NCBI GenBank assembly: GCA_937944405.1
Contig: CALDYR010000102.1
Span: forward strand, 1-64,000
Reading direction: 5' to 3'
DNA: 64,000 nt
Source of the DNA: an uncultured Pirellulaceae bacterium
Lineage (GTDB): Bacteria; Planctomycetota; Planctomycetia; Pirellulales; Pirellulaceae
The notes beneath the pieces were generated by a model that did not search any database, had not been told where the DNA came from, and was given only the letters and a program-made list of their open reading frames with translations. Shown piece by piece: positions 5,794 to 61,395 of the stretch (its first letter is position 1; every line of letters begins with the position of its first letter). The position numbers were made by a program, and so were the translations under genes.

Positions 5794-6474
5794 TTGTCGA
5801 TTGAAAATTTGATTCTAATTCCCACCATTCTCGAAAGTTCATTGATCGAACCCCAATTGACGGATCTTCTTGAACGTAACGGGGGAAAATTTTCCCATTG
5901 CGGGTTCGGACCAATCGCCGCCACCGCGTTGGCTCAGCAAAGCATCATTTTGCATCAGCCTCAGCGCGTTTTTTTGGTGGGAATTGCCGGAGCCTACCTT
6001 CCCCAACGCCACTGCGCGGGCCGAAGCATAAATCAAAGCCTTCAACCGCTAGACGTTGGCAGCGCCCACCGATTTGGATCCGTTAGCATCGACGGGATTG
6101 GCGTCGGTGAAGCTCAAGAATTTCAGTCCGCCGGCGAACTAGGGTGGGAGCACTGCGCAGGCAATGGTGATCGACCTTCAATCGGCGATACGTTGGAGTT
6201 GCCATCCGATTCTTCGCATCACTTATTAACGGTGTGCGCTGCGTCGGCCAATGATCAACAGGCGTCGCGTCGACAGCAGCGCTGCGGTGCTGTGGCCGAA
6301 GACATGGAAGGGTTCGCCGTTGCGTTGGCCTGCAGGCTCCACAACGTGCCGCTGCAAATCATAAGAGGCATTTCTAATATGGCCGGCGACAGAGCAAAAT
6401 CGAATTGGAAAATTGCTGACGCAATGCAGGCGGCGGTTGATCAACTGAGTTTGGCGTTGGGGGAATCAGCATGA
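5794..6474 (+). CDS. mqnB: Futalosine hydrolase MqnB
   Basis: MqnB removes adenine (or hypoxanthine) from aminodeoxyfutalosine or futalosine to give dehypoxanthine futalosine in the alternative menaquinone pathway. The 226-residue length and nucleoside-phosphorylase fold blocks fit: GGKFSHCGFGPIAAT near the N-terminus, RVFLVGIAGAY, and AEDMEGFAVALAC with the catalytic acidic residues, then IRGISNMAGDR. The start is a TTG with no clear ribosome site; no in-frame ATG fits the family N-terminus. It overlaps mqnD by 4 bp (ATGA), so the two are translationally coupled. The pairing with mqnD makes the call firm over a generic nucleosidase. Confidence 0.9.
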   Translation: MSIENLILIPTILESSLIEPQLTDLLERNGGKFSHCGFGPIAATALAQQSIILHQPQRVFLVGIAGAYLPQRHCAGRSINQSLQPLDVGSAHRFGSVSIDGIGVGEAQEFQSAGELGWEHCAGNGDRPSIGDTLELPSDSSHHLLTVCAASANDQQASRRQQRCGAVAEDMEGFAVALACRLHNVPLQIIRGISNMAGDRAKSNWKIADAMQAAVDQLSLALGESA

Positions 6475-7355: not shown

Positions 7356-7370
7356 ACCGCCGGCGCTCAC

Positions 7371-7556
7371 TTACACACCGTGCATAATTCCCGCCATGCA
7401 GGCCGTCATACAGCACGCCAACATGCCGCCGAACATCGCGCGAAGACCACGTTCCGCCAATTCGCCGCGCCGGCAGGGCGTCTGCGGACCGATGCCACCG
7501 ATTTGAATTCCAATTGCACCGAAGTTTGAAAACCTGCACAACGCGTAAGTCCAAAT
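7371..7556 (-). pseudogene. C-terminal fragment of a NupC-type nucleoside transporter
   Basis: On the minus strand a frame ending in TAA at 7371 reads TYALCRFSNFGAIGIQIGGI, then GPQTPCRRGELAERGLRAM, then LACCMTACMAGIM. This is the last conserved helix region of concentrative (CNT/NupC) nucleoside transporters. Upstream the frame continues a few codons and then loses similarity, with an in-frame TGA near 7616. The rest of the gene is absent. It is a decayed leftover directly downstream of mqnD. Confidence 0.6.
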
Positions 7557-7646
7557 CTCTTTAGGCTCTCCCCCGAAATGAGTGGGTGAAATGGCGTTAG
7601 CCGGGCATCCTCACTTGAGCTCTTCAGAATGGGGGGCCCGTTCGGC

Positions 7647-7697
7647 ATCGCCATCGTTTCGGCCTCAATTTGCTACGCAGGCCGAAACGACGGCGAC
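7647..7697. repeat. Strong 19-bp hairpin
   Basis: Arms 7647-7665 and 7679-7697 are complementary with only two mismatches and enclose a 13-nt loop. There is no T-run beside it. It could be a bidirectional transcription block or the end of an old mobile element. Confidence 0.7.
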
Positions 7698-7801
7698 GCG
7701 GAAGGGACTCACGGCATCTTCTTTTGTTTTTCAAAACGCATCCTGTTGAATCTCGTGTAAATTGAGTTTGCGAAAACACTTAATCACGCAAGCTCGACCC
7801 A

Positions 7802-7941
7802 ATGCTATTTGAGACTATCCTCAATCATCGTTACCCGCTCAAGGGCTTTGTCTACGGCAACTGCAAGATTGTCGCTAATTCATCCAGCGGCTTGGACGAG
7901 ATCCACGTTGCAGTGGCTGCTCGCAAGAACAGCAAGCCCCG
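7802..7941 (+). pseudogene. N-terminal fragment of an ISL3-type transposase
   Basis: From the ATG the frame reads ILNHRYPLKGFVYGNCKI, then EIHVAVAARKNSKP. This matches the N-terminus of ISL3-family transposases just before their first zinc-finger cysteines. Homology stops abruptly at about 7941, where a truncated copy of the dispersed repeat begins. The finger and DDE domains are missing, so the gene is dead. Confidence 0.6.
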
Positions 7942-8030
7942 CTACATTCACTGGAAAAGGCAAGCCTTGGGCACACCGCCCGCAATAAACGCAATGGGCA
8001 CAATGGGCGAGACAAAGTTCCGGAAAGAAC
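7942..8030 (+). repeat. Dispersed repeat, copy B, right part only
   Basis: This copy starts at CTACATTCACTGGAAAAGGC, shared with the copy at 63129, and ends with ACAAAGTTCCGGAAAGAAC. It lacks the left hairpin arm. It begins exactly where the ISL3 transposase fragment breaks off. A short AATGGGCA-type duplication lies inside it. Confidence 0.6.
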
Positions 8031-8084
8031 ATATCCAGACTCCCCCAAGACGATTTTTTGCGGCGCCGGGCAATCTAGGATGCG

Positions 8085-9428
8085 TTACGGGGTCGGTTGA
8101 TTTGGCAAGGCAGCGTCGCTTTCGGGCGTGGGAGTTGGGGTTTGAACTTGCGGGATGCCGTGTTCATCTGTTTTCAAAGGCGGCAGTTCGTAGGTGCGTT
8201 GCTGATTAACGACCGAGATTTCATCCATTTCGGTATCATCAACGTCTTTACGCAACAGTAAGTATATCGCGCTGGCCATGCACCAAAACAATCCGTAAAC
8301 AAAAGCCGCCGCGACACTGCGCGCCAGCCAAGACCATCCACGGATCAACGCTCGTCCAGCGTACAGGGGTGTCGACGGATCAACGGCGATCACATTTCCG
8401 TTTTCATCGACAGCCGTGGGAGCGGTGAGACTGCGAATGACGTCCATGCGACTATCTTCACCACTGACCAATGCGGTGCCAAAAGAAGTCGACCAGTAAC
8501 CAAGATTCAATATGCCGTCGGTGAGGTTTGCGATCACTAACCAGCAACACCCGCCAAACACCATCGCGATCACCAGATACAGGGCGTAATTCAACGGTCG
8601 TTGAAACGTGTAGGCGTAGGCCCGTGTCATCGCATCGAAGTTGTTTTGCCCTTCACAAGCCACACTGGCCACCATCAACGGCCAACCGAACATCAACCCC
8701 AGCAACAACAGCGCCATCGCCGCGGCCAGTGCTAAAACGACAAACCACAGCAGTCCTACGACCATCACGCCCAAATCACCCCACATCAACACCCCGAAGA
8801 AAAACGTCGGCACGCACATCGCTGCGACCGCCAGCAAAGGGATGCCAACGGCTCCGATCGCGGCTCGGGATTTGTCAATCGCGAATTCGAAAGCTTCATC
8901 AAGACTCATTGGTTCATTGCGGGTCAGTTTGAGTAAACAGATCCGGCAGATGCCAACGCCGACAAAACACCAAACCAACAAACTGAAACCGCAACCGGTC
9001 AATAGGTAGAGAAAGGCCCAGAAGGACCAGCGCGTCGGAGCATCTGTTGCGCCGGACGTTGTGTACTGTGGCATTGAAAACAGGTGTGCAAACGGTTCAA
9101 CGATCTGCGTGAACACCATGCGTGGCCCGCTTAAACGTGCGCCTAAGATATTGATCGAATTGGCTTCATCGTCGGTGGCCAGAAACACGCGTTTGTAAGG
9201 ATTGCGATTGTACTGAATGATCTCCGCCATCACCGCGTCCGACTGTACCCCCTGATCGATGAAGACGGTTTCGGCCACAATCCATCCCATCGGCATCGCC
9301 ACCAACCCCAGTAACGCCAAAATCAGTACCGGGATACTGGTGGCCGCACTTAGCGATCGGAAAATGATCGTCCAAGGACATAGCGATTGCCAAGAAACTT
9401 TGTTGACGTGAACGGGTTGTGCGCTCAT
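8085..9428 (-). CDS. Unknown multi-pass membrane protein, 447 aa
   Basis: I do not recognise a defined family. The chosen ATG gives MSAQPVHVNKVSW; a TTG 63 bp upstream also opens the frame but would sit on the likely promoter. Hydrophobic segments occur near residues 33-55, 138-165, 190-240 and 275-300, with one more at about 380-400, so about six to eight helices are likely. The C-terminus is soluble, acidic and proline-rich. A long extramembrane loop of about 80 residues lies between the first and second helices. It is a lone minus-strand gene downstream of an esterase gene on the same strand. It may be a lineage-specific envelope protein. Confidence 0.65.
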   Translation of the reverse strand: MSAQPVHVNKVSWQSLCPWTIIFRSLSAATSIPVLILALLGLVAMPMGWIVAETVFIDQGVQSDAVMAEIIQYNRNPYKRVFLATDDEANSINILGARLSGPRMVFTQIVEPFAHLFSMPQYTTSGATDAPTRWSFWAFLYLLTGCGFSLLVWCFVGVGICRICLLKLTRNEPMSLDEAFEFAIDKSRAAIGAVGIPLLAVAAMCVPTFFFGVLMWGDLGVMVVGLLWFVVLALAAAMALLLLGLMFGWPLMVASVACEGQNNFDAMTRAYAYTFQRPLNYALYLVIAMVFGGCCWLVIANLTDGILNLGYWSTSFGTALVSGEDSRMDVIRSLTAPTAVDENGNVIAVDPSTPLYAGRALIRGWSWLARSVAAAFVYGLFWCMASAIYLLLRKDVDDTEMDEISVVNQQRTYELPPLKTDEHGIPQVQTPTPTPESDAALPNQPTP

Positions 9429-9490
9429 GGAGGGTTTTCTAAACGGTTTGGAGAGGAGGAAGTATGAGATCCAGTTTTTTTGAAGGCCCA

Positions 9491-9519
9491 ATTATAGACG
9501 ACTCAGCGCGACGTGGAAC
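9491..9519 (-). promoter_or_regulatory. Possible promoter of the membrane protein gene
   Basis: A perfect TATAAT (9496-9491, minus strand) lies about 60 bp upstream of the chosen ATG at 9428. The -35 position (GTTCCA, 9519-9514) matches poorly. If real, it overlaps the stop codon of the upstream esterase gene and argues for the downstream start. Confidence 0.3.
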
Positions 9520-11050
9520 CATCGGCGATTGAGCCTTGTCTATATTTTTCTGCAAGCCCATCGTAAATACGTTTTTTCAAACCCGATTGGAAAAGGTTGA
9601 AGTGATCGCGATTGGGCAGGATTTCGATTTGTGCGTCGCTGCCGACGGTTTCCATTCGCTGCTTCAACAACCGCACCGCTTCGGTCAACACAAAGGTATC
9701 TTGTTGGCCAGTGAAGACGTGCAGTTTGCCCGCCAAGTCTTCCTTCAACACCGGCCAGTTCGATTGCAAGTAGGCGCTGATATCGTACTGTTTCCAGTGC
9801 TTCACAATTTCGAAATCGACTTCCCCTGTTTCGCGATTCCAACACTTCGCCGGCAACCCATCGTCGCCGCGCGGGCTGAAGACGGCTTCGAAACTCCTCA
9901 GTTGTCCGCCCCGCTCCAACACATCATCCATTCTAGAAAAATCCTCATACCAGATGACCGGGCGCCCGTTCGCAATCGCTAACGGGCGGCGTTGACCGGC
10001 TGAATCTTTGAATATATTTGACGCAGCGGCGTAAAGATTGGTGCCCTGCCAATCCCGGAAGTCAACCGGGTCGGGCGACGTACTCCACACCCCACCGAAG
10101 AATTTAGGATAATGCGTTTGCAGCCACAATGAAGACCAACCGCCGCTACTGTGTCCACCGAGCATCCGGCCGTAGGGTTTCGCGACGGCGTTAAAGCGAT
10201 TCTCAATCGCAGGAATCAATTCCTTCACCAAGGCGTCACCGCGCGGGCCGTTCGTTTGGCTGTTGGCATAAACGTGATGCCCCCATTCGCACTGCCCCGT
10301 TAAAAACACGTGTATGAAATCGACGCCTCTGGCACTCACCGCACTGAACTGGTGACGCAACAGCATGTCCTCGATCGTCGCCCCAAATCCTGTGATCTCG
10401 TAGAAAACGGGGTAAGTTTTTTTCGTGCCCGCCGCGTACCCCTGAGGCAGCAAAACCAAAGCCCGATCAATCACCGCGCGGTCGTGATACGCGGAAAGCA
10501 ACGCGCTGCGATGGGCGAACACTTGGGCCGCGGGAGCCCTGTGGATTGTCTTTTCTTTAACTTGGCGACTCAGACTGATTTTGATCTCGTTTTCTGAATC
10601 GTTCGTTAGAACAACACGTTGAGGGGCGGAGTAAAAATTACCGACGCCGTTTTTATGATGTGCGAAATCTGGATTGTGTTTCAGCACCGCCTGAACATAG
10701 TACTTTCCCGGAGACATTTGCCCGAGCGATTGTGGATATGCATCGGTAGCGCCGGTGACGGTCACGCTTTCATTCGTCTGCCAGTCACTCACATTCAACG
10801 CGGCAAATGCCTCTGGCGAAAACCAACTGGGCCCCGTGATAGGCGATGGATTGAATTTAGAAAACAAGACCAGCAGTCGCCCTGACGCTGGCTGCTTCGT
10901 GATTTCATCACCTAAGGTGACCGTAATATTTATTCCAAGACGTGCCTGTTGAGCCACCACCGAATGCTGGCAACACGACAGCATCCAACAAAGTATAAAC
11001 AGCCAGCCCCGTAGCCGAGCAAGAGCAAGGGATGGAAAAATGGAACGCAT
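9503..11050 (-). CDS. Exported esterase (alpha/beta hydrolase), 515 aa
   Basis: Starting at MRSIFPSL gives an N-terminal signal peptide with a hydrophobic core (LFILCWMLSCC) and a likely cleavage after VVAQ. An upstream start would place 28 unrelated residues before it. A beta-rich N-terminal domain of about 150 residues precedes an esterase-D-like alpha/beta hydrolase domain. That domain has YGRMLGGHSSGGWSS with the nucleophile Ser in GHSSGG. A late LPNRDHFNLF stretch is a good place for the catalytic His. It probably hydrolyses an ester in the periplasm; the substrate is unknown. The gene stands alone. Confidence 0.8.
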   Translation of the reverse strand: MRSIFPSLALARLRGWLFILCWMLSCCQHSVVAQQARLGINITVTLGDEITKQPASGRLLVLFSKFNPSPITGPSWFSPEAFAALNVSDWQTNESVTVTGATDAYPQSLGQMSPGKYYVQAVLKHNPDFAHHKNGVGNFYSAPQRVVLTNDSENEIKISLSRQVKEKTIHRAPAAQVFAHRSALLSAYHDRAVIDRALVLLPQGYAAGTKKTYPVFYEITGFGATIEDMLLRHQFSAVSARGVDFIHVFLTGQCEWGHHVYANSQTNGPRGDALVKELIPAIENRFNAVAKPYGRMLGGHSSGGWSSLWLQTHYPKFFGGVWSTSPDPVDFRDWQGTNLYAAASNIFKDSAGQRRPLAIANGRPVIWYEDFSRMDDVLERGGQLRSFEAVFSPRGDDGLPAKCWNRETGEVDFEIVKHWKQYDISAYLQSNWPVLKEDLAGKLHVFTGQQDTFVLTEAVRLLKQRMETVGSDAQIEILPNRDHFNLFQSGLKKRIYDGLAEKYRQGSIADGSTSR

Positions 11051-11096
11051 CAACAAACCTCGGCTGTGGTATAATAAAGTAAAATTTTTCTCGGGC

Positions 11097-11126
11097 CGTG
11101 ATAACACTGGTCGTGATAACACCGGC
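11097..11126. repeat. 15-bp tandem duplication in an esterase/acyltransferase spacer
   Basis: The unit CGTGATAACACTGGT is repeated at once with two changes, and a third decayed unit may follow to 11140. It lies in the divergent spacer, about 25 bp from a second 15-bp tandem repeat. Confidence 0.75.
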
Positions 11127-11163
11127 GGTGACAACGGTAATTTTTTTCAGTGGCGAAATTCCC

Positions 11164-11208
11164 TTCATGTTGTTTAACTTCATGTTGTTTAACTTCATGT
11201 TGTTTAAC
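11164..11208. repeat. 15-bp unit in three perfect tandem copies
   Basis: The unit TTCATGTTGTTTAAC is repeated three times without change. It lies between the divergent esterase and condensation-domain genes. It could be translated if the plus-strand gene started at the GTG at 11150, but conservation suggests a later start. Confidence 0.95.
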
Positions 11209-11284
11209 AATCAGGGAAGACTGCCAGTTGTCGGTCGCTGGGTCAGTTCTTCCCCTTCTCTTTCCTATCATCAAACCTGCTCAA

Positions 11285-12709
11285 TTGAAAGCCACCGAAT
11301 CAGATTCTGTTGCCGAAACGTTTTCTCTGCCACTGACTGGTATGGAGAAATTTCACCGCGCTGCCGACACCCCCGCGTATCCCAATACGATCTTCTGCCG
11401 GATGAGATTCGCCGGTCGGATCGATCAACGCATCGCGCGCGAAACTCTAAAATGCTTGCTGAAACGGCATTGGCTGCTGCAAAAAACGATCAAAGGCAGT
11501 GGCTTGCGACAAAAGTGGGTGCCGGATGACGATCTGGTCGACGTAGCATTGGACGACGAACTGGCCAAAATGATGACTTGGAACTGCGCCGCGGCGGACT
11601 GCCATTTTATGGCCGATGACTTCGCACCTCAGTTACTGTCGGGGAACGAAGAATCGGTCGTACCGCAAATCAACATTGAATCGCAGCGTGGGATCCACAT
11701 GTGGGTGTTCGCAGGCCCAAACAACACAATGATTTTAGCTGGCATCCATCACGCGGTCGGTGACGGCGGTGGTGGAGTTCAACTGCTGAGTGACTTTGTT
11801 CATGTGTACGACAACTTGTACGCTAACCGGGACTGGGACTACGGACTGCGACAGTTGAATCCAAGTCTTTTGAAACAACGCGGCGATATCGGGCTGTTGC
11901 GCTGGAATTACTTGCAGCATCTTTGGAAGCAGCCAATCGCTTTGTTTGGTTTCTTCAAATTCATGCGGAACAAATTCCAAACGTTTTCACCAAATAAACA
12001 CACGCTAACGCCTGCGACTAATTTCCCTGGTATCGTTGGACGCTGGATATCCTCCGACGATTCTGTGGCGATTCAAGCATCCGCCAATCGCAACAAAGTA
12101 CCAGTCAACTCCGTCGTGATGGCGGCGGTATTTCGCGCGTGTCAGCGCTGGCTTGGTGGACGTGGTAACGGGAACGACGCCGGGTGGATCCGAATGTTAC
12201 TCCCGATCAGTTATCGCAACAAATCGGATCTCAGATTGCCCGTCACTAACAAAACAACCATCGTGCAAATTGATCGACGATACCAACAGATGCACCCCTC
12301 CGAAACGTTTTTGCATTACCTCAATCGGGAAATTAACATCGTGGTGGGCTGGCAGTTTCATAAACTTTTTTTAATGGCGATCGAGTCGTTGTCTTGGTTG
12401 CCAGGCGGTTTACAACGCGCCGCCAATACTCCGATCGCGCGCGGCACGATCGTGTTCACAAATCTAGGTACACCGTTTCGTTTTAAAAAGTTCATTAAAC
12501 GTAACGCAATCGGTCCGTTGAATTGGGTCGACTTCGATTTCGTTGGGCCCATTCGCCCGAAAATGCCCGTCAACTTCACGCTCCAACGGCATCATCAACA
12601 GTATCGCCTGTCGCTGCATTTCGATCGACGAGCCCTAACTCAAGCGACCGCTGAGGCATTTTTGGCCTCGATCGAAGCCGAACTTTCCGATCCTCTCCAG
12701 AAGTTTTAA
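11285..12709 (+). CDS. Condensation-domain-like acyltransferase, 474 aa
   Basis: The protein resembles CoA- or carrier-dependent acyltransferases of the condensation-domain superfamily (wax ester synthase, PapA-like). The active-site block is AGIHHAVGDGGGG, which contains HHxxxDG with the catalytic second His. The family start block SLPLTGMEKF lies close to the N-terminus, so I choose the TTG at 11285. A GTG at 11150 would add 45 residues made partly of a 15-bp tandem repeat, and an ATG at 11342 is also possible. A late domain with RWLGG...WIRMLLPISYRN fits the second half of the fold. No carrier protein or NRPS gene is nearby, so it probably esterifies a free alcohol or amine. Substrate unknown. 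Confidence 0.75.
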   Translation: MKATESDSVAETFSLPLTGMEKFHRAADTPAYPNTIFCRMRFAGRIDQRIARETLKCLLKRHWLLQKTIKGSGLRQKWVPDDDLVDVALDDELAKMMTWNCAAADCHFMADDFAPQLLSGNEESVVPQINIESQRGIHMWVFAGPNNTMILAGIHHAVGDGGGGVQLLSDFVHVYDNLYANRDWDYGLRQLNPSLLKQRGDIGLLRWNYLQHLWKQPIALFGFFKFMRNKFQTFSPNKHTLTPATNFPGIVGRWISSDDSVAIQASANRNKVPVNSVVMAAVFRACQRWLGGRGNGNDAGWIRMLLPISYRNKSDLRLPVTNKTTIVQIDRRYQQMHPSETFLHYLNREINIVVGWQFHKLFLMAIESLSWLPGGLQRAANTPIARGTIVFTNLGTPFRFKKFIKRNAIGPLNWVDFDFVGPIRPKMPVNFTLQRHHQQYRLSLHFDRRALTQATAEAFLASIEAELSDPLQKF

Positions 12710-13091
12710 CGGCAACGCGCCCCCTTGGTCGGGTCGCCGGGAGTCGCGGTCTCCCGTACCTTCTGACCAGACCGATTGTCGGGAAATTGTAGTTGTGTAC
12801 CGGAGTCAATCAGGGCAGTTCTCTGCGCCCGCCCGTTTCAAACGGGGATTGCTATCACGCAACGCTATCAGCGTAAGTGGTTGCCTTGGGCCGGTTAAAT
12901 AACCAACGGGCAGTGGCTTCCCCAATTCAGCCGCAAACTTCAAGATTTGGCTCGTTTAGGCCCATGTAAATTCCGAACAACTACTACAAGTGTAAAAATT
13001 TATCGCCGCGTTGTTGATAAACGATTCGACTGCGAATCAGACTAATCCCACGACTCCAACATAACAGGCTGATCGCAAATCAGGCCTCTGT
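12710..13091. other. Intergenic region without a recognised gene
   Basis: There is no coding signal. A short perfect palindrome (CCCGTTT-C-AAACGGG, 12832-12846) could be an operator but has too small a loop for a hairpin. The last 130 bp are AT-rich and may hold the promoter of the next gene. Confidence 0.3.
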
Positions 13092-14228
13092 ATGCTGAAA
13101 CTATCACGCATCGAAGTACCGAAAAGCTTAGCGCTTTTTAAGTTCGGATTCGCCCGTTTCAAGGTGGCGATTTCGACGGTAGCGTTATTGGTGGTGTGGA
13201 ACTTCGGTTTCATCAGCGTTCTTTACGCTCAAGAGATAGCGACCGGGACCAGTGCGCGGCAGCTTCGCAAGGAAGTCGTCCGCAGCCTGCCGTACGCTCA
13301 ATTGAATGCCGAAACCAAAGCAAAAATCGGCGATATTCTTGAAAGGCCGAGCCTTTACAGACGCTTACCGGTAACCGCGATAGCGATCGATCCGGAGTAC
13401 CTTCAGTTCTTGATACGCTACCCTGAGACTGTGGTCGGGATTTGGGATTTGATGGGCATCACGAAAATGAAAACTCAACGGGCCGGTCCGTATTTGCTGA
13501 AAACCGACGACGGCGCAGGCACGACCAGCGCCATGGAACTTGTCTACGGCAGTCCAGATCTGCACATCTATTTTGGGGACGGACATTATGAAGGCCCCGT
13601 TTTACGAAAGAAACTTAAAGGAAAATGCGTCATCATCCTCCGGACTCGACCTCACGCGGAGCACATCGCGGGCGACATTTTGGGCCAACGTCCTGGCGCT
13701 GCGCCCAAAATAGCATGTCAGTTGGACGTGTTTTTGAAACTTGAGAACGGTACCGCAGGCATCATCGCCAAAACCATCAGCCCCATCGTTGGTCCGACAG
13801 CGGACCACAATTTCACAGAGTCGCTCAAGTTTGTGGAACGTTTGAACAGAACAACCGTCGACAACGGTCCCGGCGTTCAGAAAATGGCCGAACGGTTAGA
13901 CGTCGACCAACAGGTCATCGAAAACTTCCAAGCCGTTGCGGGGCGTACGTATGACCGGGCCGTGAAAAGGGCGACGTACAAACACAAGGATTACGATTTC
14001 AGCGCCGACGCGCGTGTCTCTGGGGTCCCCACCCAGCCGCATGCGGTGACCGCTCCGCCGTTCTCATCGGCGCGTGTACCGGATTCTCGGCCTTATGCCT
14101 ATCAGCAACAGTCCTATCAATATCCTCTTCACGGTCGCAGCGACGCCTCCCCCTATCACAGCTACCCCGCTGGCGGCAGTTTCTTCGATTCCAGTTCTGT
14201 CCAGCGCGCAATCTTGCGTGAACAATAG
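13092..14228 (+). CDS. Unknown exported protein, 378 aa
   Basis: I do not recognise a family. The N-terminus has a basic stretch and a hydrophobic helix (VAISTVALLVVWNFGFISVLYA) that would serve as a signal peptide, with likely cleavage after YAQ. The mature part is a globular, mixed alpha/beta region to about residue 280. The tail of about 85 residues is rich in Tyr, Pro, Ser and Gln and is probably disordered. It starts with ATG and runs just upstream of the hybrid kinase gene on the same strand, 133 bp apart. A periplasmic or surface role is inference from the signal peptide. Confidence 0.65.
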   Translation: MLKLSRIEVPKSLALFKFGFARFKVAISTVALLVVWNFGFISVLYAQEIATGTSARQLRKEVVRSLPYAQLNAETKAKIGDILERPSLYRRLPVTAIAIDPEYLQFLIRYPETVVGIWDLMGITKMKTQRAGPYLLKTDDGAGTTSAMELVYGSPDLHIYFGDGHYEGPVLRKKLKGKCVIILRTRPHAEHIAGDILGQRPGAAPKIACQLDVFLKLENGTAGIIAKTISPIVGPTADHNFTESLKFVERLNRTTVDNGPGVQKMAERLDVDQQVIENFQAVAGRTYDRAVKRATYKHKDYDFSADARVSGVPTQPHAVTAPPFSSARVPDSRPYAYQQQSYQYPLHGRSDASPYHSYPAGGSFFDSSSVQRAILREQ

Positions 14229-50344: not shown

Positions 50345-53300
50345 TCAGGCAGCCTGCAGCGATCTGGTTTGTTGCGCCCAAGCGATCCAGTCGGTAATCT
50401 CAGCGAGATCCGGCTTCTTTCCAGAACGAATGATTTTTAATCCTTCTTTGGTGTCGGAAAAGGGTTCGATGACACTAAACAGTGACTGAGGCTGCAACGC
50501 GGCAATCTCTTCAGGTTCAATAAATTCACACGCGACCAGCAATTGTGCATCATGGCCTCGCAGGTTGGGAATGCGACACACCAAACGGGCCTGCTGCTGC
50601 CAGCCACGGACGACGTCTACCGACATGCGTTTATAGTTTAGCTTTGCCGCCATCGATTCAGCGGTTTGCTTTAAAAATTCAGCGATCGTGAACACGCCTA
50701 TTTTCTCAAACCGCTCCGCCGTTTTAGGGCCAATCGAAGGCGCCGCTTCGATGTGGTCTTCTAAATCGAGGTAAAATTTATAAGCCGATTTTGTCGGTTG
50801 GGGGGAGGTTCGGGTCGCGGCGGGTTTCGTTTCCTTAGTGCGGTTAGATTCTGGTGCCAGAGCTGGAACGGACCGTCGATAGGTCTCAGGCGTTGGCGTT
50901 GACATACGCGGCGAGCGGATCGGTCGCGGCGTGGACCGCGACCGTGGTTCGCGCCCTTGAGATTCACGGGATCGAGATTCACGGGATCGGGAAGACGAGC
51001 GGTCTGCGCGAATAATCTCTTGGGCACGTTGGGGGGCCCCATCATCGAAACGGCTAATACGAGGCCCGTTGGAACGTGTCGCTCTATTTACTCGGTCATA
51101 GTGCTCCCTGCCATAATCCGATCGATCATAGTCCGATCGATCATAGTCCGGGCGACCGTTACTGGGTCGGTGTTCGTTGGACCGGTCGTCACGAACCTCA
51201 ACGGCCCGTGCAGATCCGTTTTCATACCCGCGATTGGACCGGCGACGGCCTTGTCGACCGTTTCGCCAGCGCTGACGAGTCCTACGAATGCCTTGGTGCC
51301 AATCGTTGATACGGTTGATCGTGATGCGATAGGAATCGTTAAATTCGTGATCGGCTTCGTTTGCGTTGAGGTAACGCTGGACGCGTTCGAGCAACATTTG
51401 CGCGGCGGACGTTTCGAGTTGATCGGGTTCACAGATTCCGCAAGCGACTAAAACGTGAGCGTCGTACGGGCGTAGCGCCGGCACGCACGTTAACAACCAG
51501 ACTTCGGACTGCATATTGGCAACCACGGCACGGGAGAGTCCCGCTTCGCCCCAGTCACTGGGCAACTGCTGTGGGTCGATGTCCAACAAATCACCTACTG
51601 AGAAGATACCGCTGTCATTGAGCGTCCTTAATTGCAGCGAATCAAAAATTTCGATTGTGTTCAATGGTGAATGGTCTTCAAGCGTTACCGCATACTCCAA
51701 CCGATCGCCAATTTTATTTGCTTTGATGCTGGCCACCGGTGGCGCTGCTGCGGTTTGGAAGCGCCCGATCTCGGGGCTTAAATAACGTGTTGAGTTCGCA
51801 GGGGATGGCGTCGCAACAGACGCCAAGACTTCAGTAGTCAGGTGCGAGGCTGAAACAGGTGAGGGATTGATACCGTTGGGCACGATTGGCTTGGCGTTGG
51901 AGAAGGCGATCGTTGCAGGGCTCGCAACGACTGGTGCGTCCCAAGGTTGGGGCAGCGCAGTGGACGCTCGATTTTCGATGTCGAAGAATTTGATCATGCC
52001 GTAATTATTGGCTCGATCGATCAAGAATCGATGCTGCGTCAGCATGATCACCTGATGGCCGCGAGCGGAAAATTCGGCCAGGTACTGCAACGCGGTGTCA
52101 ATTCGGTCGCTGTCGAAGTCACCAAAAAGTTCATCGATAATCAGCGGGGCCACCAAGCCTTGAGCGGACAACGCGCGATGGGCCGCCAGAATCAAACTCA
52201 GTTCTGTCTGCGTCCGCATCGTCGGGGTCAGGTGCGCTGAATCGATCACGCGCTGTTGTCGGTCTTGGATTTGAAGGTCGATACGATCGCCATGGCTAAC
52301 TAACCACGCCGCCGATAAATCGCCATGAGAAAGACGAGCCAGAATCTGGGACGCTTCTACCAATATGGCGTTGGGGGCAATCGAAGTCATCTTCACCGCT
52401 TCTTCGAGCCGTAAATTTAGTGACTCACGTGAAGCCAAATGAGATTGCAACGCAGTTTGAACGTTCGCTAGTTCCAGTTTCCACGGCGCGTCGTTGGCGG
52501 GTGCAAGGGCGTTGCGTTCGTTTCGCAAGTTCATCACTTGCGATCGTAACTGCGTCATCTCAAGGGTGTCTGTCGCACCATGGCGTTGGATTTCCGCGCG
52601 ACGATTCTCTAACACGGCCAGCTGACTGCGCTGTTTTGTTAAATCCGGAGCGACCATCTGCGGGGCTGGTGGGATCGTTACCACAGGCCCAACGAATCGC
52701 TCACGCGCCTTGAAATAGCCTTCATGAGCCGCACATTGACAGAATTTTTCGTCGGCGCGAACAATCGCATCGGCCCCCAAGGGATCGGTCACTCGTATTT
52801 TATCGACCATCTTCTGGCGACGCTGCAACAGTCGCGTAACGTTTTCGGTGATCTCTTGGTAGCAGCGTCTTAAACGTTTCAGTTCAGCGGCGGCAGAACG
52901 ATGGCGGATTTGATTATATTGCTTTCCTAATTCGTCGCAAAGGTCGTAAAGGTCTTCTCGCATACCCTGGCAAACGTCGTTCACGAACCCCGCAGCCTGG
53001 TTGGAGTCGATCGGGCCGTGCGAATTGAGCCATTGAACGGACTGGGATTCTGCTTGATCGACCCGCAGTTCCAGATTCAGCAGAATTTTTCGAGCGTTGT
53101 GATAAGGATGTTGCTCGGATTCCAAGGTCATCTCATTCCACAGCAGCATTTCGTCTTTTAACTGCACCCGTTGTTGCTGGACATCGTTTTGAACGCTTCG
53201 CCAGCGACTGATTTGGGAGTCAATTTCATCCAATTGCTCGTAATAGATCGAACCATGATCAACCACCGGTGTCGGCGGGGTGACATAAGTTGGAACCGCA

Positions 53301-54067
53301 GCGCTGATTGTCTGTTTTAGATTCCCAATTTCAACGTTGATCTGAGCCAATTGCTGAGCGTTAGGGTTGTTTGTTAAAGCGGCAAGCCGACTGTCTATTT
53401 CCACAATCTGCTGGTCAAGCTGATTGGCGCGGATTGTGACCGAAGAAGCGTTGGCCGTGATTTGGGCTTGTAGTTGCTGGGACTGATCTTGTAATGCTGA
53501 GATCTTTGCGGTGACCTGTTCGATTTCCAATCGCAACAGATTGGCCGTTTGCGTTTGATGTCCGCCGACGCCTGAGTCGCACGCATGCTCTGGACCGATA
53601 CCGACGCCCAATCGACGATGGAGTGTTTGGGGTAACCCCGCGTTGGCGGTGCCCCCTGAAGACGATTGATTGGCAAAAGAGACACTGAAGAGATTATCGT
53701 AAAGTTCGAAATCGAGCGGTCCGCCAACGAAATGCTGAAGGCTGGTGGAAACACGATTGGCAGCAACGGCGGGCGTTACATCGAGTTGATTGCCGGTGAG
53801 CAAGGAGCGTTTCAAGACGAACTTTTCAGCGGCGTTGTGAAGTTCCAATTGACCTTCGATGGATTCTCCAAAATGGAGCGCCGCCCGGTCTCCCGTTTGT
53901 CGCGCTTCGTTTGCGTGGCCAAATAAAACACCACCGATAAAGTTAGCAAGCCGCGTTTTGCCGGATCCTTTTTCTCCATAAACCAGATTCATCGCAGGGC
54001 TGATTTGCATCAATCGAATGTTGTGCAGCTTGCGATAGCCATCGATGGTAATTCCAGTCAGCTTCAT
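50345..54067 (-). CDS. Rad50-like ATPase fused to DUF4332-type domains, 1240 aa
   Basis: The N-terminal half-ATPase has MKLTGITIDGYRKLHN and Walker A GEKGSGKTR (31-39). Long coiled coils reach about 600. Near the coil middle is FCQCAAHEG (about 445). Walker B LIIDELFGDFD lies at about 640, preceded by TPTMRTQTELSLILAAHRA, where the usual LSxG signature is degenerate. Then comes a DUF4332-like region (about 790-905). An Arg/Ser/Asp-rich disordered linker (about 950-1090) contains in-frame 15-bp repeats. A second DUF4332-like helix-hairpin-helix unit follows, with APSIGPKTAERFEKIGVFTI (about 1105). No nuclease gene is beside it. A DNA repair or chromosome role is inference. Confidence 0.8.
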   Translation of the reverse strand: MKLTGITIDGYRKLHNIRLMQISPAMNLVYGEKGSGKTRLANFIGGVLFGHANEARQTGDRAALHFGESIEGQLELHNAAEKFVLKRSLLTGNQLDVTPAVAANRVSTSLQHFVGGPLDFELYDNLFSVSFANQSSSGGTANAGLPQTLHRRLGVGIGPEHACDSGVGGHQTQTANLLRLEIEQVTAKISALQDQSQQLQAQITANASSVTIRANQLDQQIVEIDSRLAALTNNPNAQQLAQINVEIGNLKQTISAAVPTYVTPPTPVVDHGSIYYEQLDEIDSQISRWRSVQNDVQQQRVQLKDEMLLWNEMTLESEQHPYHNARKILLNLELRVDQAESQSVQWLNSHGPIDSNQAAGFVNDVCQGMREDLYDLCDELGKQYNQIRHRSAAAELKRLRRCYQEITENVTRLLQRRQKMVDKIRVTDPLGADAIVRADEKFCQCAAHEGYFKARERFVGPVVTIPPAPQMVAPDLTKQRSQLAVLENRRAEIQRHGATDTLEMTQLRSQVMNLRNERNALAPANDAPWKLELANVQTALQSHLASRESLNLRLEEAVKMTSIAPNAILVEASQILARLSHGDLSAAWLVSHGDRIDLQIQDRQQRVIDSAHLTPTMRTQTELSLILAAHRALSAQGLVAPLIIDELFGDFDSDRIDTALQYLAEFSARGHQVIMLTQHRFLIDRANNYGMIKFFDIENRASTALPQPWDAPVVASPATIAFSNAKPIVPNGINPSPVSASHLTTEVLASVATPSPANSTRYLSPEIGRFQTAAAPPVASIKANKIGDRLEYAVTLEDHSPLNTIEIFDSLQLRTLNDSGIFSVGDLLDIDPQQLPSDWGEAGLSRAVVANMQSEVWLLTCVPALRPYDAHVLVACGICEPDQLETSAAQMLLERVQRYLNANEADHEFNDSYRITINRINDWHQGIRRTRQRWRNGRQGRRRSNRGYENGSARAVEVRDDRSNEHRPSNGRPDYDRSDYDRSDYGREHYDRVNRATRSNGPRISRFDDGAPQRAQEIIRADRSSSRSRESRSRESQGREPRSRSTPRPIRSPRMSTPTPETYRRSVPALAPESNRTKETKPAATRTSPQPTKSAYKFYLDLEDHIEAAPSIGPKTAERFEKIGVFTIAEFLKQTAESMAAKLNYKRMSVDVVRGWQQQARLVCRIPNLRGHDAQLLVACEFIEPEEIAALQPQSLFSVIEPFSDTKEGLKIIRSGKKPDLAEITDWIAWAQQTRSLQAA
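50961..50990. repeat. 15-bp tandem duplication inside the Rad50-like gene
   Basis: GATTCACGGGATCGA is repeated with one change. The unit is five codons, adding the SRESR-type peptide to the linker. Confidence 0.85.
51117..51146. repeat. 15-bp tandem duplication in the same linker
   Basis: TCCGATCGATCATAG occurs twice perfectly, encoding YDRSD units. Decayed units flank it. Confidence 0.9.
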
Positions 54068-56327: not shown

Positions 56328-58547
56328 TTACGGCGAAACCAATAGCGCCTGTTCGACCTTTGTGCGCAGCCAATCGTTGGTCGCCAAAAAGAGATAACTA
56401 CCCAACGACTGAGATCGCGCAGAAAAATACGCGCGGCCACGTTGCCCCGAATGAAGCGTTTGGCTGGTCGAGTCATCTAACGCCACCAGCACATCAAATC
56501 GAGGCGACAGCAGTACCATGCTTTGCTCCGAATTCGTGTTACTGTCGCGTGGTGCGGGCATCAACGGTAACGGTCCTCCAGCATTCGCACACAGTGATGG
56601 ATGCAATGGCCTGTTAGATGCGATTGGGTCAATACGTGTGATTGGGGATTCAAACAACCCGATTCCCGGCAACGCAATCCTCAAGGCACGGTCTTGGCTG
56701 AGTTGGATTGATTCTAAATCGCGTTGATCCACCGATACGATAACCTCTTTGGTATCCCGTTTGGCAACTGTCATCAACGGGTCGCCTTGGTTGACGAAAC
56801 TGCCAACCATTTGATGGAGTCTACGACCAAAAACGAAACCATCCAACGGGCTGCAAACGATCAATCCGTCGGCTTGCGCTCGTTTTTCGGCCCACTGCTT
56901 TTTCAGCCCGGCCAGTTTTTCGGCCTCAACACTGGCCTGCACTAATTCATTTTGTTGACGGTAGATCCTCTGCTGGATCGTCGCCGATTTGATTTCGCTG
57001 GCCAGCGCGTCGACCTCCAAGCTAAGTTCTTCGTTTCGCAAACGTATCAAGGGTTGGCCTTGAACGACATCCTCACCGTTACCGATTAGAATTTCGTCCA
57101 CAAATCCATCAGCCGTCGAACGAAGAATCGTCTCTTCGGCAAACTGCACAATCGCCGGGGCTGACTTTGTTGGCGGGGCCTTCAACACCCAAAACAATGC
57201 GCCGATCAATACCGTTGCTGACAACACACTCAACGCGACGCGTTTTCGGTTGATGGGTTTAGGAGATTCTGGCGAGAAATGGAGTTTGTACTGTTTCATC
57301 AGCGGCAAACCGAACCAAAGCACAACGCCCAACGCACCGAGTATCAGTCCGGCCCCGTTGAACATGACACTAGCGGTAATCACCAAACCGATGCTGACCG
57401 AAAACTTCCAAAAGAACGCCAATGCCCCGTAGATCTTAACGACCCGACGCTCGCGGTGGGGAAACAAGTTCGGCGTCTTCGGCGTGCCCAGCAAAAAATG
57501 TTTCAGTCGATCGCCGAACCATTGGGTCCCTTTGGTATAAAGATTGGGAACCTTCAGTAAATCCGAAAGAATGAAATAGCCATCGAAACGCATCAGTGGG
57601 TTGGCGTTAAACAATACCGTCGTTACGCTGGCCATGATGAAAACATTGTAAGCGGTATCAGCGGTCAATCCTCGACTGTTGGCCCAGATGATCAGCGCGA
57701 CGAAGGAAACGAACAATTCAACATACATACCCGCAGCGGCCACGATAATCCTTTGCCAGCGACTGGGGAACCGCCACATCGATGTCACATTCACGAACGC
57801 CATCGGCGTGAACAGCAACATCAAAACGCCGGCTTCGGGCACTTCACCGCCGTATCGCTTACAGGAAACGCCATGAGCGAATTCGTGAATGATTTTCAAA
57901 ATCAACCAAAATACCAACAGCGATATCCAACTGGTGCCTGACAAAATCCCCTGCGACGCGGCACAAAACTTTGGCCACTGCGTGATCACGGTCTGCATCG
58001 CCCACGCCCCAACGCATAACCATCCCAGCAAGAACCACTTCGAAAACAACTTGTCAAACCAAGGTTCAGCCGCCGACAAAAAACGATTGGGGTCGAACAA
58101 TTTGATTTTGAACGAGATTGGATTGACCTTGCTCATTAGCGCCTGATTCTTCAGCGCTTCGGATTGGGTCTTAATTCTATTGGTCGAATCCAGCGACTGC
58201 GAAATGGTAAGGTTTGATCGCACCAACCACTGGCAAATCGTTCCGGCTTGATCTTCGTTGACTGCGTCATGTCCGTTGCTGTGTAATTCGGCGATCACTT
58301 CAGCGACCGTACGGGCACCATCAAGAGACGCGATAAATTGAAATTCGGCGACTCCAATTTGAAAGTATTTCGACCGCACCGGGTCTTCGACAACGACAAA
58401 AGTGTTTTCGTCTTCGGACCGTGTATCAAATTTCAATTCCGTCCGAAGCTTCAGCTTTGCCTGGAGCCATTGTGATCTCGGGTTTGACGCTTCTTCAGCG
58501 CGTTTGGCACTGGTGAACACCGTTGAAAATTGTGGTGAGATGCTCAT
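56328..58547 (-). CDS. PqqD-like / peptidase M50 / HlyD fusion, 739 aa
   Basis: The start ATG (58547-58545) shares a base with the upstream stop (TAATG), so the two are coupled; a longer frame start is not used. Residues about 40-115 look PqqD-like. A membrane metalloprotease of site-2 type follows, with IIHEFAHG (His221, Glu222, His225) and the later NPLMRFDGYF (Asp about 322) to complete the zinc site. Several helices surround it. From about 460 a helix leads to a HlyD-type adaptor region (lipoyl-like and coiled-coil) outside the cytoplasm. It probably cleaves or exports a peptide or protein, with the two adaptor genes. The substrate is unknown. Confidence 0.85.
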   Translation of the reverse strand: MSISPQFSTVFTSAKRAEEASNPRSQWLQAKLKLRTELKFDTRSEDENTFVVVEDPVRSKYFQIGVAEFQFIASLDGARTVAEVIAELHSNGHDAVNEDQAGTICQWLVRSNLTISQSLDSTNRIKTQSEALKNQALMSKVNPISFKIKLFDPNRFLSAAEPWFDKLFSKWFLLGWLCVGAWAMQTVITQWPKFCAASQGILSGTSWISLLVFWLILKIIHEFAHGVSCKRYGGEVPEAGVLMLLFTPMAFVNVTSMWRFPSRWQRIIVAAAGMYVELFVSFVALIIWANSRGLTADTAYNVFIMASVTTVLFNANPLMRFDGYFILSDLLKVPNLYTKGTQWFGDRLKHFLLGTPKTPNLFPHRERRVVKIYGALAFFWKFSVSIGLVITASVMFNGAGLILGALGVVLWFGLPLMKQYKLHFSPESPKPINRKRVALSVLSATVLIGALFWVLKAPPTKSAPAIVQFAEETILRSTADGFVDEILIGNGEDVVQGQPLIRLRNEELSLEVDALASEIKSATIQQRIYRQQNELVQASVEAEKLAGLKKQWAEKRAQADGLIVCSPLDGFVFGRRLHQMVGSFVNQGDPLMTVAKRDTKEVIVSVDQRDLESIQLSQDRALRIALPGIGLFESPITRIDPIASNRPLHPSLCANAGGPLPLMPAPRDSNTNSEQSMVLLSPRFDVLVALDDSTSQTLHSGQRGRAYFSARSQSLGSYLFLATNDWLRTKVEQALLVSP

Positions 58548-60466
58548 TACCAAATCGTCCAATAACGCAGCGATTCCCATGCGCCATGGAACAGGTTCCA
58601 ACCAATGGGCGACCAGCGCGTAGTGATTTTGGCGTTCCCTTCCATCCCCGGTCGAAGGTCTCCGGCTGAATTATCGATTTCGACTTCAGCAATGAAAACC
58701 GTTTGATCGTCAACAATTTCGGCGCTGGGGTGAATTTGCTGGACCTTCCCTGCCCAACTCTGGTAAGGGAAAGCGTTGATTTTCAGGGCGACCGCATCGC
58801 CTTGGTGAACATAATGAATTTCTGATTCGGGTATGCCAATTTCCGCAACCATCGTTTCCAGCGGCGCGACCTCAAATAGATTCTGCCCCATCTCAAGCGG
58901 GGCGCCTTGGGCCTTCTCCATATCTCCGGCAACAATGACACCGCCGATCGGTGAGCGCGTCTCAAGATCTTTCATGCGATTGTTGAGCAACTGAATTTGC
59001 GACCAAAACCGATTCATTTCGCTTCGCGCGATTTGGCTTTGTGCAATCTCGCGCACCGCAAGGGATGAATCCCTTCGGCGTTTGGCGCCCTCGTACTGGG
59101 CTTCTAACCCGGCTAATTCTATTCTCAACTGCCGTCCGTCAAGCCGAGCGATGATTTGATCTTGGGAGACCACGTCACCAATTTTGACGAAAGACTTTTC
59201 TAAAATTCCGTCATAGGGAGCGGCCACAAAACGCCGCTCAATCGGCTGAAGTTGGCACTCGCAGGGTACGCGGTAAGGCATCGGCACCGCCATCAGCCCG
59301 ACGACAATAAGTGCTGCGATACACAGCTTCCGCATTGTCGATTTTCCTTTCCTCAGTTTTAACCTTAACAGCTCACCGGTCGAACAAGTCGCTCGGCTGA
59401 CGATATAAAACTGCTTCGCGACCAACGCCGCCATTTTCTCAACGTAAGGTTGTTGATTGATTCGGTCGCGATCAGCAAAGGTGACCAACAACGCACCGAC
59501 GATTTCATCGCCATCTACTTTCATCGGCAGACTGATCGCGGAGGCAGCATTGGCGTCGGCGCACCAATTCTCAAGCGGCAAAACTCGCGCCGCGGCGATT
59601 TGGGCGTCCTGATTTGGAAACGCGACCGACGCCCTCGAAGATACCGATTGATCGATCGCGGAAAGCAGTCGTTTGTTATTTGTCGCCGCGGCGTCAAGGT
59701 TTTCCACGTCAGAGACTGCCAGCAAATGGGATCTTTGGTGGACATCGACCTGAGCGATCGCGACTTGGTTGGCATCAAACAGGCGGCGAAAGTTGTTCAC
59801 AATCGCAATCGCGGCTTCGGTGGTGTTCTTCGAATCGCTGATTTCGTTTAACAACTGCAAGGCTTCGTTGAGCGTCTGGGATTGGGATTTCACCAAAACT
59901 AATTGTCGCCGTTGTGCCCACTGGCTGACAGATTGCGAAACGATGCCCAGCATCCACTGTAATCTCAATGTACTCTGATCGTTCGCAGCAAAACATGCCG
60001 TCAGGATTTCGCGCGAATCGTCTTGTGATAACCCCGCCTCAAGCGGCGCCGCAACCAGAACATGTTCACGATCGGGCAATACCAACGCGCTGCAAATTTG
60101 ATCATACGATTCGGATTTCTGCACGACATCGGTAATTTGGTCTTCCACCGACAGCCACACAGCAGCAGCGCTGTCATCAGAAACAGCTGATGTGCGGAGC
60201 GTCTTATCGGCGGCAGCAACTTGAACACGCCACAACGCCAGACACTCCGTTTGGACGGCAATAATCTCAAAGAGCGCTTTGAAAAGTTCATCGGCGGTAC
60301 CGGCCGCATCGACCGCCCGCGCAACGTCCCGAATCAAAGGCTGGGTTTCGATTTCCAACAGCTCCACACCGATCGGTTGTGACGAAACGGCGTTGCGCGG
60401 GTCGTCTGCAGAGGCGCTGGTAACGCGCGGCGAAACGGAATCGGGAGTTGAAGGCAACTGCGACAT
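58547..60466 (-). CDS. GAF-domain HlyD-type membrane fusion protein, 639 aa
   Basis: The N-terminal 370 residues look like two GAF-like units, cytoplasmic by topology. A single helix (about 376-396: KLCIAALIVVGLMAVPMPY) then leads outside. The last 240 residues form a HlyD-type adaptor: PYDGILEKSFVKIGDVVSQDQ (lipoyl half), a coiled coil, a second lipoyl half and a beta-barrel. ATG start. It lies between the simple adaptor and the M50 gene in the same operon. A GAF on an adaptor suggests that the export complex is gated by an internal ligand; this is inference. Confidence 0.83.
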   Translation of the reverse strand: MSQLPSTPDSVSPRVTSASADDPRNAVSSQPIGVELLEIETQPLIRDVARAVDAAGTADELFKALFEIIAVQTECLALWRVQVAAADKTLRTSAVSDDSAAAVWLSVEDQITDVVQKSESYDQICSALVLPDREHVLVAAPLEAGLSQDDSREILTACFAANDQSTLRLQWMLGIVSQSVSQWAQRRQLVLVKSQSQTLNEALQLLNEISDSKNTTEAAIAIVNNFRRLFDANQVAIAQVDVHQRSHLLAVSDVENLDAAATNNKRLLSAIDQSVSSRASVAFPNQDAQIAAARVLPLENWCADANAASAISLPMKVDGDEIVGALLVTFADRDRINQQPYVEKMAALVAKQFYIVSRATCSTGELLRLKLRKGKSTMRKLCIAALIVVGLMAVPMPYRVPCECQLQPIERRFVAAPYDGILEKSFVKIGDVVSQDQIIARLDGRQLRIELAGLEAQYEGAKRRRDSSLAVREIAQSQIARSEMNRFWSQIQLLNNRMKDLETRSPIGGVIVAGDMEKAQGAPLEMGQNLFEVAPLETMVAEIGIPESEIHYVHQGDAVALKINAFPYQSWAGKVQQIHPSAEIVDDQTVFIAEVEIDNSAGDLRPGMEGNAKITTRWSPIGWNLFHGAWESLRYWTIW

Positions 60467-60588
60467 GGTAGGTGGGAGCGACCTTACGATAGTCAGAAGT
60501 GGGGTTAGGTTACTGTCGCGGCGTCAGCGGCACGCACTGTGATATGTCTTTTTATGTCTGTCATCCGTGGGCCTTTTCTGGAACATCG

Positions 60589-61395
60589 TTAAACGTTCAA
60601 AGTGCAACTTTCGCCGCTGCGAATCTGGTAGTTTTCGTTGTCGATCACGAATTTGATTTCCACGGTCCCGCTTTGGGGATTGATCTCCACCCCCACACTA
60701 TGGACCTCTGCCTGAACGGTGGAACCGCTACTGAGTTGGAGATCGTAGGTTTGGCCAACCTGAAAATCGCGGGCCGTTCGTGAATCGACATTAAACGTTG
60801 CCAGTAGTTTGTCGACTTGGATCAGTGTGCAAATTTCTGGATGCAAAGGCGATAGGAACTCGCCTTCGCGGCTAACGACCTTCGAAATAAATCCATCGAA
60901 AGGGGCTCGTATAGTACGGCGTTCGAGTTGCACTTGCGCTCTTCTCTTTTCGATTTCGCGTACTGCGGCCTCTTCTACAGCGTTGAAGTAATTTGCTTCG
61001 GCGATCGACATTTCCAATGAAGCGCGAATGATTTCGCTATCGCTGGCATGCCCCTGTTGTTTTAAAAGTTCCAAACGTTGTGTGATCGCGCGGCGTTTTT
61101 TCAGAGTGTTACCAGCGGAGCGCTGTTGGCTTATTGAACCAGCGACCTTGGTGGCAATTTCTAATTGAATCTGTTGGACTCGTGAATCCAATTTTGCGAC
61201 GACGTCGTTCTCCCGGACCGTTTGGCCTTCCACAACCATCAATTCAGCGATCGCGCCGGTTTCGTCACTGGAGAGTTCGATCCTGCGAAAGGGTTCGATG
61301 AAACCTTCGACCGCAAAATTTTCTGATTGTGCGAATGTGACTTGAGCCGACACAGCAACGATTAAGAACGTTAATAGTGTTGTGAACCGTTTCAT
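60589..61395 (-). CDS. Periplasmic adaptor (HlyD/RND type), 268 aa
   Basis: The start MKRFTTLLTFLIVAVSAQVTFA is a signal peptide; an upstream ATG adds 32 unrelated residues. The mature part has the two lipoyl halves (RIELSSDETGAIAELMVVEG and APFDGFISKVVSREGEFLS) with a coiled-coil hairpin between. No RND or ABC pump gene lies beside it. It is first in the operon, 122 bp before the GAF-HlyD gene. It probably forms the outer-envelope part of the same complex. Confidence 0.85.
   Translation of the reverse strand: MKRFTTLLTFLIVAVSAQVTFAQSENFAVEGFIEPFRRIELSSDETGAIAELMVVEGQTVRENDVVAKLDSRVQQIQLEIATKVAGSISQQRSAGNTLKKRRAITQRLELLKQQGHASDSEIIRASLEMSIAEANYFNAVEEAAVREIEKRRAQVQLERRTIRAPFDGFISKVVSREGEFLSPLHPEICTLIQVDKLLATFNVDSRTARDFQVGQTYDLQLSSGSTVQAEVHSVGVEINPQSGTVEIKFVIDNENYQIRSGESCTLNV

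Follow-up and report, generated by a model that had tools for sequence, protein, structure and literature searches.

A three-gene operon in an uncultured Pirellulaceae bacterium belongs to a family of modules that, with a probability of about two in three, exports very large surface proteins bearing an N-terminal LEPR-XLL leader. The operon lies at 56328-61395 on the minus strand of a 64,000-nucleotide stretch (positions 1 to 64,000 of contig CALDYR010000102.1, assembly GCA_937944405.1; hereafter, the window) and encodes an HlyD adaptor, a GAF-HlyD protein, and a fusion in which a PqqD-like recognition element (RRE) for ribosomally synthesized and post-translationally modified peptides (RiPPs) precedes an M50 metalloprotease and a second HlyD-type adaptor. 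For the window copy itself the same role, assigned by analogy, is somewhat better than an even bet. Gene content and folds recur across conserved loci, where the module and the LEPR-XLL-type motif are associated both statistically and in position, and the link to LEPR-XLL proteins as cargo is fairly strong. The source assembly comprises 3.95 Mb and is 93% complete, and its nearest named relatives in this analysis are Pirellulaceae metagenome-assembled genomes.

The locus type itself, with adaptors resembling those of type I secretion systems and a secondary short SecA, was described by Kamneva, Poudel and Ward in 2015 (PMC4452313); the operon does not in itself constitute the new system that a first, sequence-only reading of this DNA had considered possible. 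The main text of that paper offers SecA as a possible ATPase, M50 as a possible pore and GAF as a possible sensor, notes secondary SecAs that are not co-encoded with partners, the latter being found elsewhere, names the operon MexAM1_META1p2402-2399 of Methylobacterium extorquens AM1, and describes what the loci do more broadly as "completely unknown"; it contains no match for lepr, pqqd, giant, DUF3467, DUF4347, adhesin or cargo. The window holds the M50-HlyD, GAF-HlyD and HlyD genes together, the combination that marks a locus of this type (GAF by homology). New here are the predicted RRE fold on the M50 protein, the LEPR-XLL giants at module loci and the recurrence of DUF3467 proteins beside them, and no link between LEPR-XLL and the module was found in the open-licence PubMed Central papers searched.

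LEPR-XLL proteins at module loci

A scan of genome contigs gave at least 497 relatives, of which the best 80 were kept as named loci, titled Planctomycetota, Verrucomicrobia, Chlorobiaceae, Desulfuromonadaceae, Nitrospira, Magnetococcales, Aquabacterium, Thiomicrospira, Dyella and others. Counted by adjacency on the same contig, the surroundings of the 81 M50 genes of at least 520 amino acids (aa) in these loci contained GAF-HlyD in 72 cases, an adaptor in 62, TolC in 27 (by a profile resting on one sequence), a short SecA in 25 and a LEPR-type N-terminus in 21, with many of the 80 loci cut by contig ends and the last count including loci that supplied the profile. Among the 46 loci with longer flanks, the corresponding figures were 44, 37, 19, 19 and 14, and the motif was near 11 of the 19 with TolC versus 3 of the 27 without it.

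The motif search began at locus L017 of the source genome, where a protein encoded directly upstream of the SecA gene carries the N-terminal sequence GALEERRVLA, which suggested the LEPR-XLL domain. Motifs of this type were located near the N-termini of large open reading frames (ORFs) at related loci; in ORFs of at least 600 aa a strict form had 18 occurrences within the N-terminal 120 residues (38,040 residues in all) and two in the remaining 222,543 residues. Of 10 chosen N-termini from related loci, 8 scored over the cut-off of the NCBIfam model LEPR-XLL (NF012209), which carries no functional description. This model gave no match over the source genome or in 14 controls and was replaced by a profile, A6, built from 23 of 24 N-termini (20 from planctomycete or source-genome loci, 3 verrucomicrobial, none gammaproteobacterial; L026, with a variant motif, was omitted). 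A hydrophobic 11-residue peak of at least 2.0 was reached by 3 of 24 motif N-termini versus 55 of 66 adaptors, indicating that most motif N-termini have no classical signal-peptide core.

An independent assessment of the association used 229 genomes of Gammaproteobacteria, the class of the Thiomicrospira genome G002, with the M50-HlyD profile at E≤1e-20 and A6 at E≤0.02. The former matched 31 genomes and the latter 26, with the motif present in 20 of the 31 genomes with M50 versus 6 of the 198 without (Fisher p = 5e-16). The imbalance was likewise evident at E≤0.001 (11/31 versus 3/198, p = 1e-8) and in ORFs of at least 700 aa (17/31 versus 3/198, p = 1e-14). Eight of the 31 genomes (G065, G093, G106, G124, G174, G202, G218 and G236) had a motif ORF located at the module and on its contig; at locus L193 it is placed between the adaptor and GAF-HlyD genes, and at L195 just after the M50 gene. 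Among 199 Planctomycetota genomes the motif was found at E≤0.001 in 15 of 46 with M50 versus 1 of 153 without, a sample that is not independent because it includes the source genome. Thresholds differ between the two samples, and genomes without an M50 gene served as the control. Twelve of 13 module genomes, some of which supplied profile rows, matched the motif at E≤0.001 and the other at 0.007.

The motif ORFs can be giant. Among their proteins, DUF4347 was present in 7 of 11 scanned, and several contained cadherin, Ig-like or laminin-G domains. In Dyella sp. OK004 the sole motif match is a 12,776-codon ORF that ends, by coordinates, about 5 kb before the GAF-HlyD gene, and in Thiomicrospira microaerophila the motif (G002:C10:53906-53959) lies in an open frame of 18,012 codons. 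The source genome has 13 motif matches at E≤1, six of them at E≤0.001, all outside the window, which has no LEPR-XLL gene. Three of its proteins (L015:1-2469, L213:3042-7811 and L214:3-5591) share near-identical N-termini, LE(D/P)RVLFDGVPDA(A/T)FILPQTDA, followed by DUF4347, and are likely a cargo family. At L029 two genes with LEPR-type N-termini follow the M50 gene (6090-10616 and 10905-14030); cargo may include enzymes, since the first encodes a thermolysin-like peptidase.

The operon and its three proteins

The genes are placed as the sequence-only reading had claimed, in one unit with TAATG coupling, and the following features were assigned, all on the minus strand.

60589-61395: HlyD/RND-type periplasmic adaptor (TIGR01730, 112.9 bits against a cut-off of 94.9, scored on a longer ORF)
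58547-60466: GAF-HlyD protein (HlyD_D23, 2.6e-19)
58643-59227: HlyD barrel-sandwich part of GAF-HlyD, residues 414-608
58545-58549: TAATG stop-start overlap of genes 2 and 3 (read directly)
56328-58547: RRE(PqqD)-M50-HlyD fusion, 739 aa (AlphaFold model, mean pLDDT, the predicted local distance difference test score, 88.7)
58197-58460: RRE/PqqD-like domain of the fusion, residues 30-117, probable leader-peptide reader (profile and fold)
57186-58088: transmembrane M50 metalloprotease region, residues 154-454 (Pfam M50; helices in the model)
57873-57887: HExxH zinc site HEFAH, residues 221-225 (read directly)
57582-57584: probable third zinc ligand, D322 in NPLMRFDGY (alignment)
56382-57182: HlyD/MacA-like adaptor domain, residues 456-722 (fold match to MacA 9qgy_G)

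Pfam detected HlyD domains in all three proteins, the third also having M50. For the adaptor, direct reading of the sequence places the start at ATG 61395, with an N-terminus that looks signal-peptide-like by eye; for the third gene the most likely start is the overlap ATG 58547 rather than the longer TTG start given by the ORF tool. The GAF-HlyD protein consists of a divergent N-terminal sensory region, one probable transmembrane segment (by eye) and the HlyD domain. GAF (PF01590) was detected by Pfam in 21 of 41 proteins scanned, the window copy being among the 41 and not among the 21; its GAF assignment thus rests on homology.

The fusion, modelled from a 60-sequence alignment, was predicted to comprise an N-terminal winged-helix-like domain, a transmembrane metalloprotease and a MacA-like adaptor. 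The adaptor domain aligned with MacA chain 9qgy_G over 218 residues (Z 16.2, root-mean-square deviation [rmsd] 3.9), and the full-length fold search was dominated by adaptors matching residues 456-722, with no M50 or RRE row among the matches listed. For the N-terminal domain, the PqqD-like end suspected from the sequence proved real: a 60-sequence profile searched against PDB sequences returned PqqD 3g2b (4.9e-5), PqqC/D (0.029) and TfuB1 (0.03) as its top three matches, TfuB1 being a lasso-peptide RRE. When the domain was predicted separately (pLDDT 82.4), the four best Foldseek matches were leader-bound lasso RREs (probability 1.00) with weak E-values of about 0.01-0.02, the best being 9.7e-3. 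In a second fold comparison 6jx3, a lasso RRE with its leader, aligned over 83 residues (Z 10.1, rmsd 3.0) and PqqD 5sxy over 89 (Z 9.0, rmsd 2.9), a methyltransferase and GdmN domains scoring Z 9.1-9.7 in among the RREs. The assignment leans on the sequence profile and both fold searches together. Pfam PqqD was detected at E≤0.01 in 17 of 80 proteins scanned and not in the window copy. The domain, as modelled, has the RRE fold, a class that binds leader peptides, and it probably does so here.

The zinc site, expected to be intact, is so in the window (HEFAH and D322), and its H, E, H and D ligands were kept in 85 of 85 aligned homologues, a count that is partly biased: most of these sequences had been retrieved with two scan patterns, and HE[FL][AG]H was part of one. 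The source genome holds four M50 copies, and the three paralogues, found by whole-protein search, also retain the ligands; mutated ligands in most homologues, which would have counted against the sequence-only reading, were not seen in these sets. With its HExxH and distal Asp, the fusion fits an M50 intramembrane metalloprotease and is a predicted protease. The closest models for its M50 part were NF041824, for the daptide intramembrane protease, at 171.2 bits against an equivalog cut-off of 300, and YydH/LiaK, likewise below cut-off.

In a tree of M50 ORFs of at least 650 aa (108 of 113), the window falls in a 12-row set of Pirellulaceae-type loci with support of 100 and no SecA detected at the locus. 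The alignments used were A4 (80 of 85 M50 proteins) and the hand-chosen A7 (window plus 59 of 76) and A8 (window plus 40 of 69). Motif genes lie near the related loci L026, L029, L030, L034 and L038. Near the operon, at 50345-54067 of the window, a separate gene encodes a 1240 aa AAA_23/SMC-like ATPase with two stretches of DUF4332.

Motor, channel and small proteins

No ABC-ATPase signature was detected in the window, 3 of 81 loci had one no more than 10 kb from M50, and a single RND-like gene (by eye) was seen among 35 other large ORFs in those surroundings. The earlier statement that the operon has no pump therefore stands as far as an adjacent ABC or RND gene is concerned, and no such gene is a conserved neighbour in relatives. 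It probably does not hold for a motor: because a short SecA was present in 19 and TolC in 19 of the 46 longer-flank loci, a motor is likely, with short SecA genes elsewhere in this genome. Of the SecA genes in the source genome, four in number, one is full-length (ORF of 1269 aa) and three are short (646, 636 and 664 aa), and the genome's M50 paralogues adjoin a short SecA at L015 and L017 and TolC at L015. At least one short SecA was present in 13 of 13 genomes around the window in the tree (holding L025-L031 and L033-L038); the genomes G241, G243 and G249, without M50, have one SecA gene each. An orphan short SecA gene of the source genome, L023:9008-10945 (contig C88), could supply the motor of the window operon; no module gene was detected in its 19.5 kb stretch.

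Two short SecAs scanned (652 and 622 aa) matched SecA_DEAD, SecA_PP_bind and P-loop_SecA; SecA_SW was undetected in both, and their scores were below every SecA2 cut-off. Loss of SecA_SW would remove the helical wing and the two-helix finger of SecA, and a pushing mode differing from that of the housekeeping SecA is therefore likely.

A small peptide had been suggested as the substrate, with conserved peptides to be expected near homologous operons. Our survey of 2586 small ORFs around 83 loci (the window, L015, L017 and the 80 named loci) revealed no precursor-like peptide in the 12 most widespread clusters, which consisted of DUF3467, initiation-factor-like, ferredoxin-like and ACT-like proteins and antisense ORFs (classified by eye except for DUF3467). 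A small exported peptide is thus unsupported, the association being with giant genes.

The widest cluster was DUF3467 (PF11950), of about 110 aa and over the Pfam cut-off in three of five members scanned. Of the 135 stretches scanned, 20 contained such ORFs (21 in all), each time with GAF-HlyD or M50 as a neighbour (L061:17789-18085, L070:703-1029, L201:12871-13176, L208:6078-6395 and 16 further stretches), at planctomycete, verrucomicrobial, Nitrospira, Desulfuromonadaceae and gammaproteobacterial loci. None was detected in the window. The protein looks soluble by eye, and a search against PDB sequences returned only immunoglobulin chains (E 1.4 and 1.7). It could be a soluble cargo chaperone or adaptor.

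Proposed mechanism, alternatives and significance

In the export scheme that we favor, the RRE domain of the M50-HlyD protein would bind the LEPR-XLL leader at the cytoplasmic face, as its fold suggests, and the intramembrane M50 part, with its intact zinc site, may act as a gate or cleave that leader. A short SecA, encoded here elsewhere in the genome, would drive the chain, as its operon membership in relatives suggests, and HlyD-type adaptors with a TolC-type channel would carry it across the envelope, in keeping with the domains present and with TolC at related loci.

Several observations weigh against this scheme. On the contig of the window (1-80900 of 81970), no LEPR-XLL gene, SecA or TolC (the last by the one-sequence profile) was found, and the role of this copy is accordingly given by analogy. 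SecA, TolC and motif were all lacking at 17 of the 46 longer-flank loci, and an M50 clade including L016 of the source genome is mostly without them nearby. The motif was first sought on the basis of the named domain and one example in the source genome; at 28 residues it is weak per match, about 5 chance matches being expected in 229 genomes at E≤0.02, and the counts are uncorrected for relatedness. At the chosen thresholds, the motif was not seen in 11 of the 31 M50 genomes of Gammaproteobacteria or in 31 of the 46 of Planctomycetota, and it occurred without M50 in six gammaproteobacterial genomes and one planctomycete. The motif-free M50 genomes include all nine of family f3 (at E≤0.001), whose M50 loci (10 regions fetched) differ in layout and have no SecA; a short SecA was present elsewhere in 8 of the 9. 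Relaxing the threshold to E≤0.2 brought the motif into 7 of the 9, a signal that does not discriminate, since 4 of 9 genomes without M50 also matched. One genome, G264, has M50 and no short SecA, with an RND-like gene nearby (by eye). Its f3-family M50 locus (L235:4142-7309) has that RND-like gene and the gene's own adaptor close by.

An indirect role, in which the module sheds, anchors or regulates surface proteins while those with LEPR-XLL have a different exit and owe their association with it to a shared lifestyle or to co-regulation, is unlikely. It would account for the up to 41 motif genes per genome at E≤1, far more than the modules seen, for the M50 clades mostly without motif, SecA and TolC at the locus, and for GAF domains, which suggest regulation. 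It fits poorly with motif genes located at 8 of 31 gammaproteobacterial modules and, at L193, inside the gene set, with N-termini that mostly lack a classical signal-peptide core, and with an adaptor, TolC and SecA, which are transport parts. For the window copy alone, and compatible with export by the family, a diverged paralogue that has lost export and senses or degrades something is similarly improbable: the contig without SecA, TolC or cargo and the four M50 copies in the genome speak for it, and the retained operon order, zinc site and RRE, together with the motif genes near related loci, speak against it.

A RiPP-like pathway, with the RRE-M50 protein maturing a small peptide that the adaptors export, a narrower form of the sequence-only reading, is slightly less probable still. 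The RRE fold and the proximity of the M50 part to the daptide and YydH/LiaK proteases are what this explanation would predict, but both models scored below cut-off, the 12 widest small-ORF clusters contained no precursor-like peptide, and the associated genes are giants. An accessory role in small-molecule or metal efflux, with the adaptors serving an RND or ABC pump encoded elsewhere, is very improbable: the adaptor passes the RND_mfp cut-off and L235 has its RND-like gene, but such pump genes are rare near the loci and the RRE, M50, SecA and giant genes would be left unexplained.

Compared with the loci described in PMC4452313, as its main text presents them, the module shares M50-HlyD, GAF-HlyD, HlyD and sometimes an outer membrane efflux protein (OEP), the absence of an ABC transporter and overlapping phyla; those loci have a secondary SecA, whereas the window copy has neither SecA nor OEP at its locus. 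Type I secretion (HlyBD-TolC) shares the HlyD adaptor fold, a TolC-type channel (here in related loci) and adhesin-like cargo (here candidate). It differs in its ABC exporter, which the module lacks, and in its C-terminal RTX signal, the putative signal here being N-terminal and read by the RRE. The N-terminal domain has the fold of, and remote sequence similarity to, the RREs PqqD, TbiB1 and TfuB1, but it is fused to a membrane protease and adaptor, and the ligand proposed for it is a giant protein's leader. With the daptide and epipeptide M50 proteases (NF041824, covering residues 58-428 of the longer ORF, and NF058609) the fusion has an intramembrane metalloprotease core in common; unlike them it is below the equivalog cut-off, is joined to HlyD and has no precursor peptide found. 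The LEPR-XLL domain NF012209 is an N-terminal tag on the candidate cargo and not part of the window operon. Like the Gram-positive accessory SecA2, the short SecA is a second SecA, here proposed for special cargo, but it differs in the SecA2 scores and undetected SecA_SW of the two copies scanned. The odds are about level that these parts, namely an RRE-M50-HlyD receptor, a LEPR-XLL leader, a truncated SecA replacing the ABC ATPase, and adaptors with TolC, perhaps with DUF3467 as chaperone or adaptor, constitute a distinct secretion class.

LEPR-XLL is a named domain for which no function was found, and tying it to the module provides one testable hypothesis for both. If true, export by the module would account for the secretion, in several phyla, of proteins encoded by frames of up to about 18,000 codons; LEPR-XLL would gain a function as an export signal. 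The association thereby suggests how bacteria may export some of their largest proteins.

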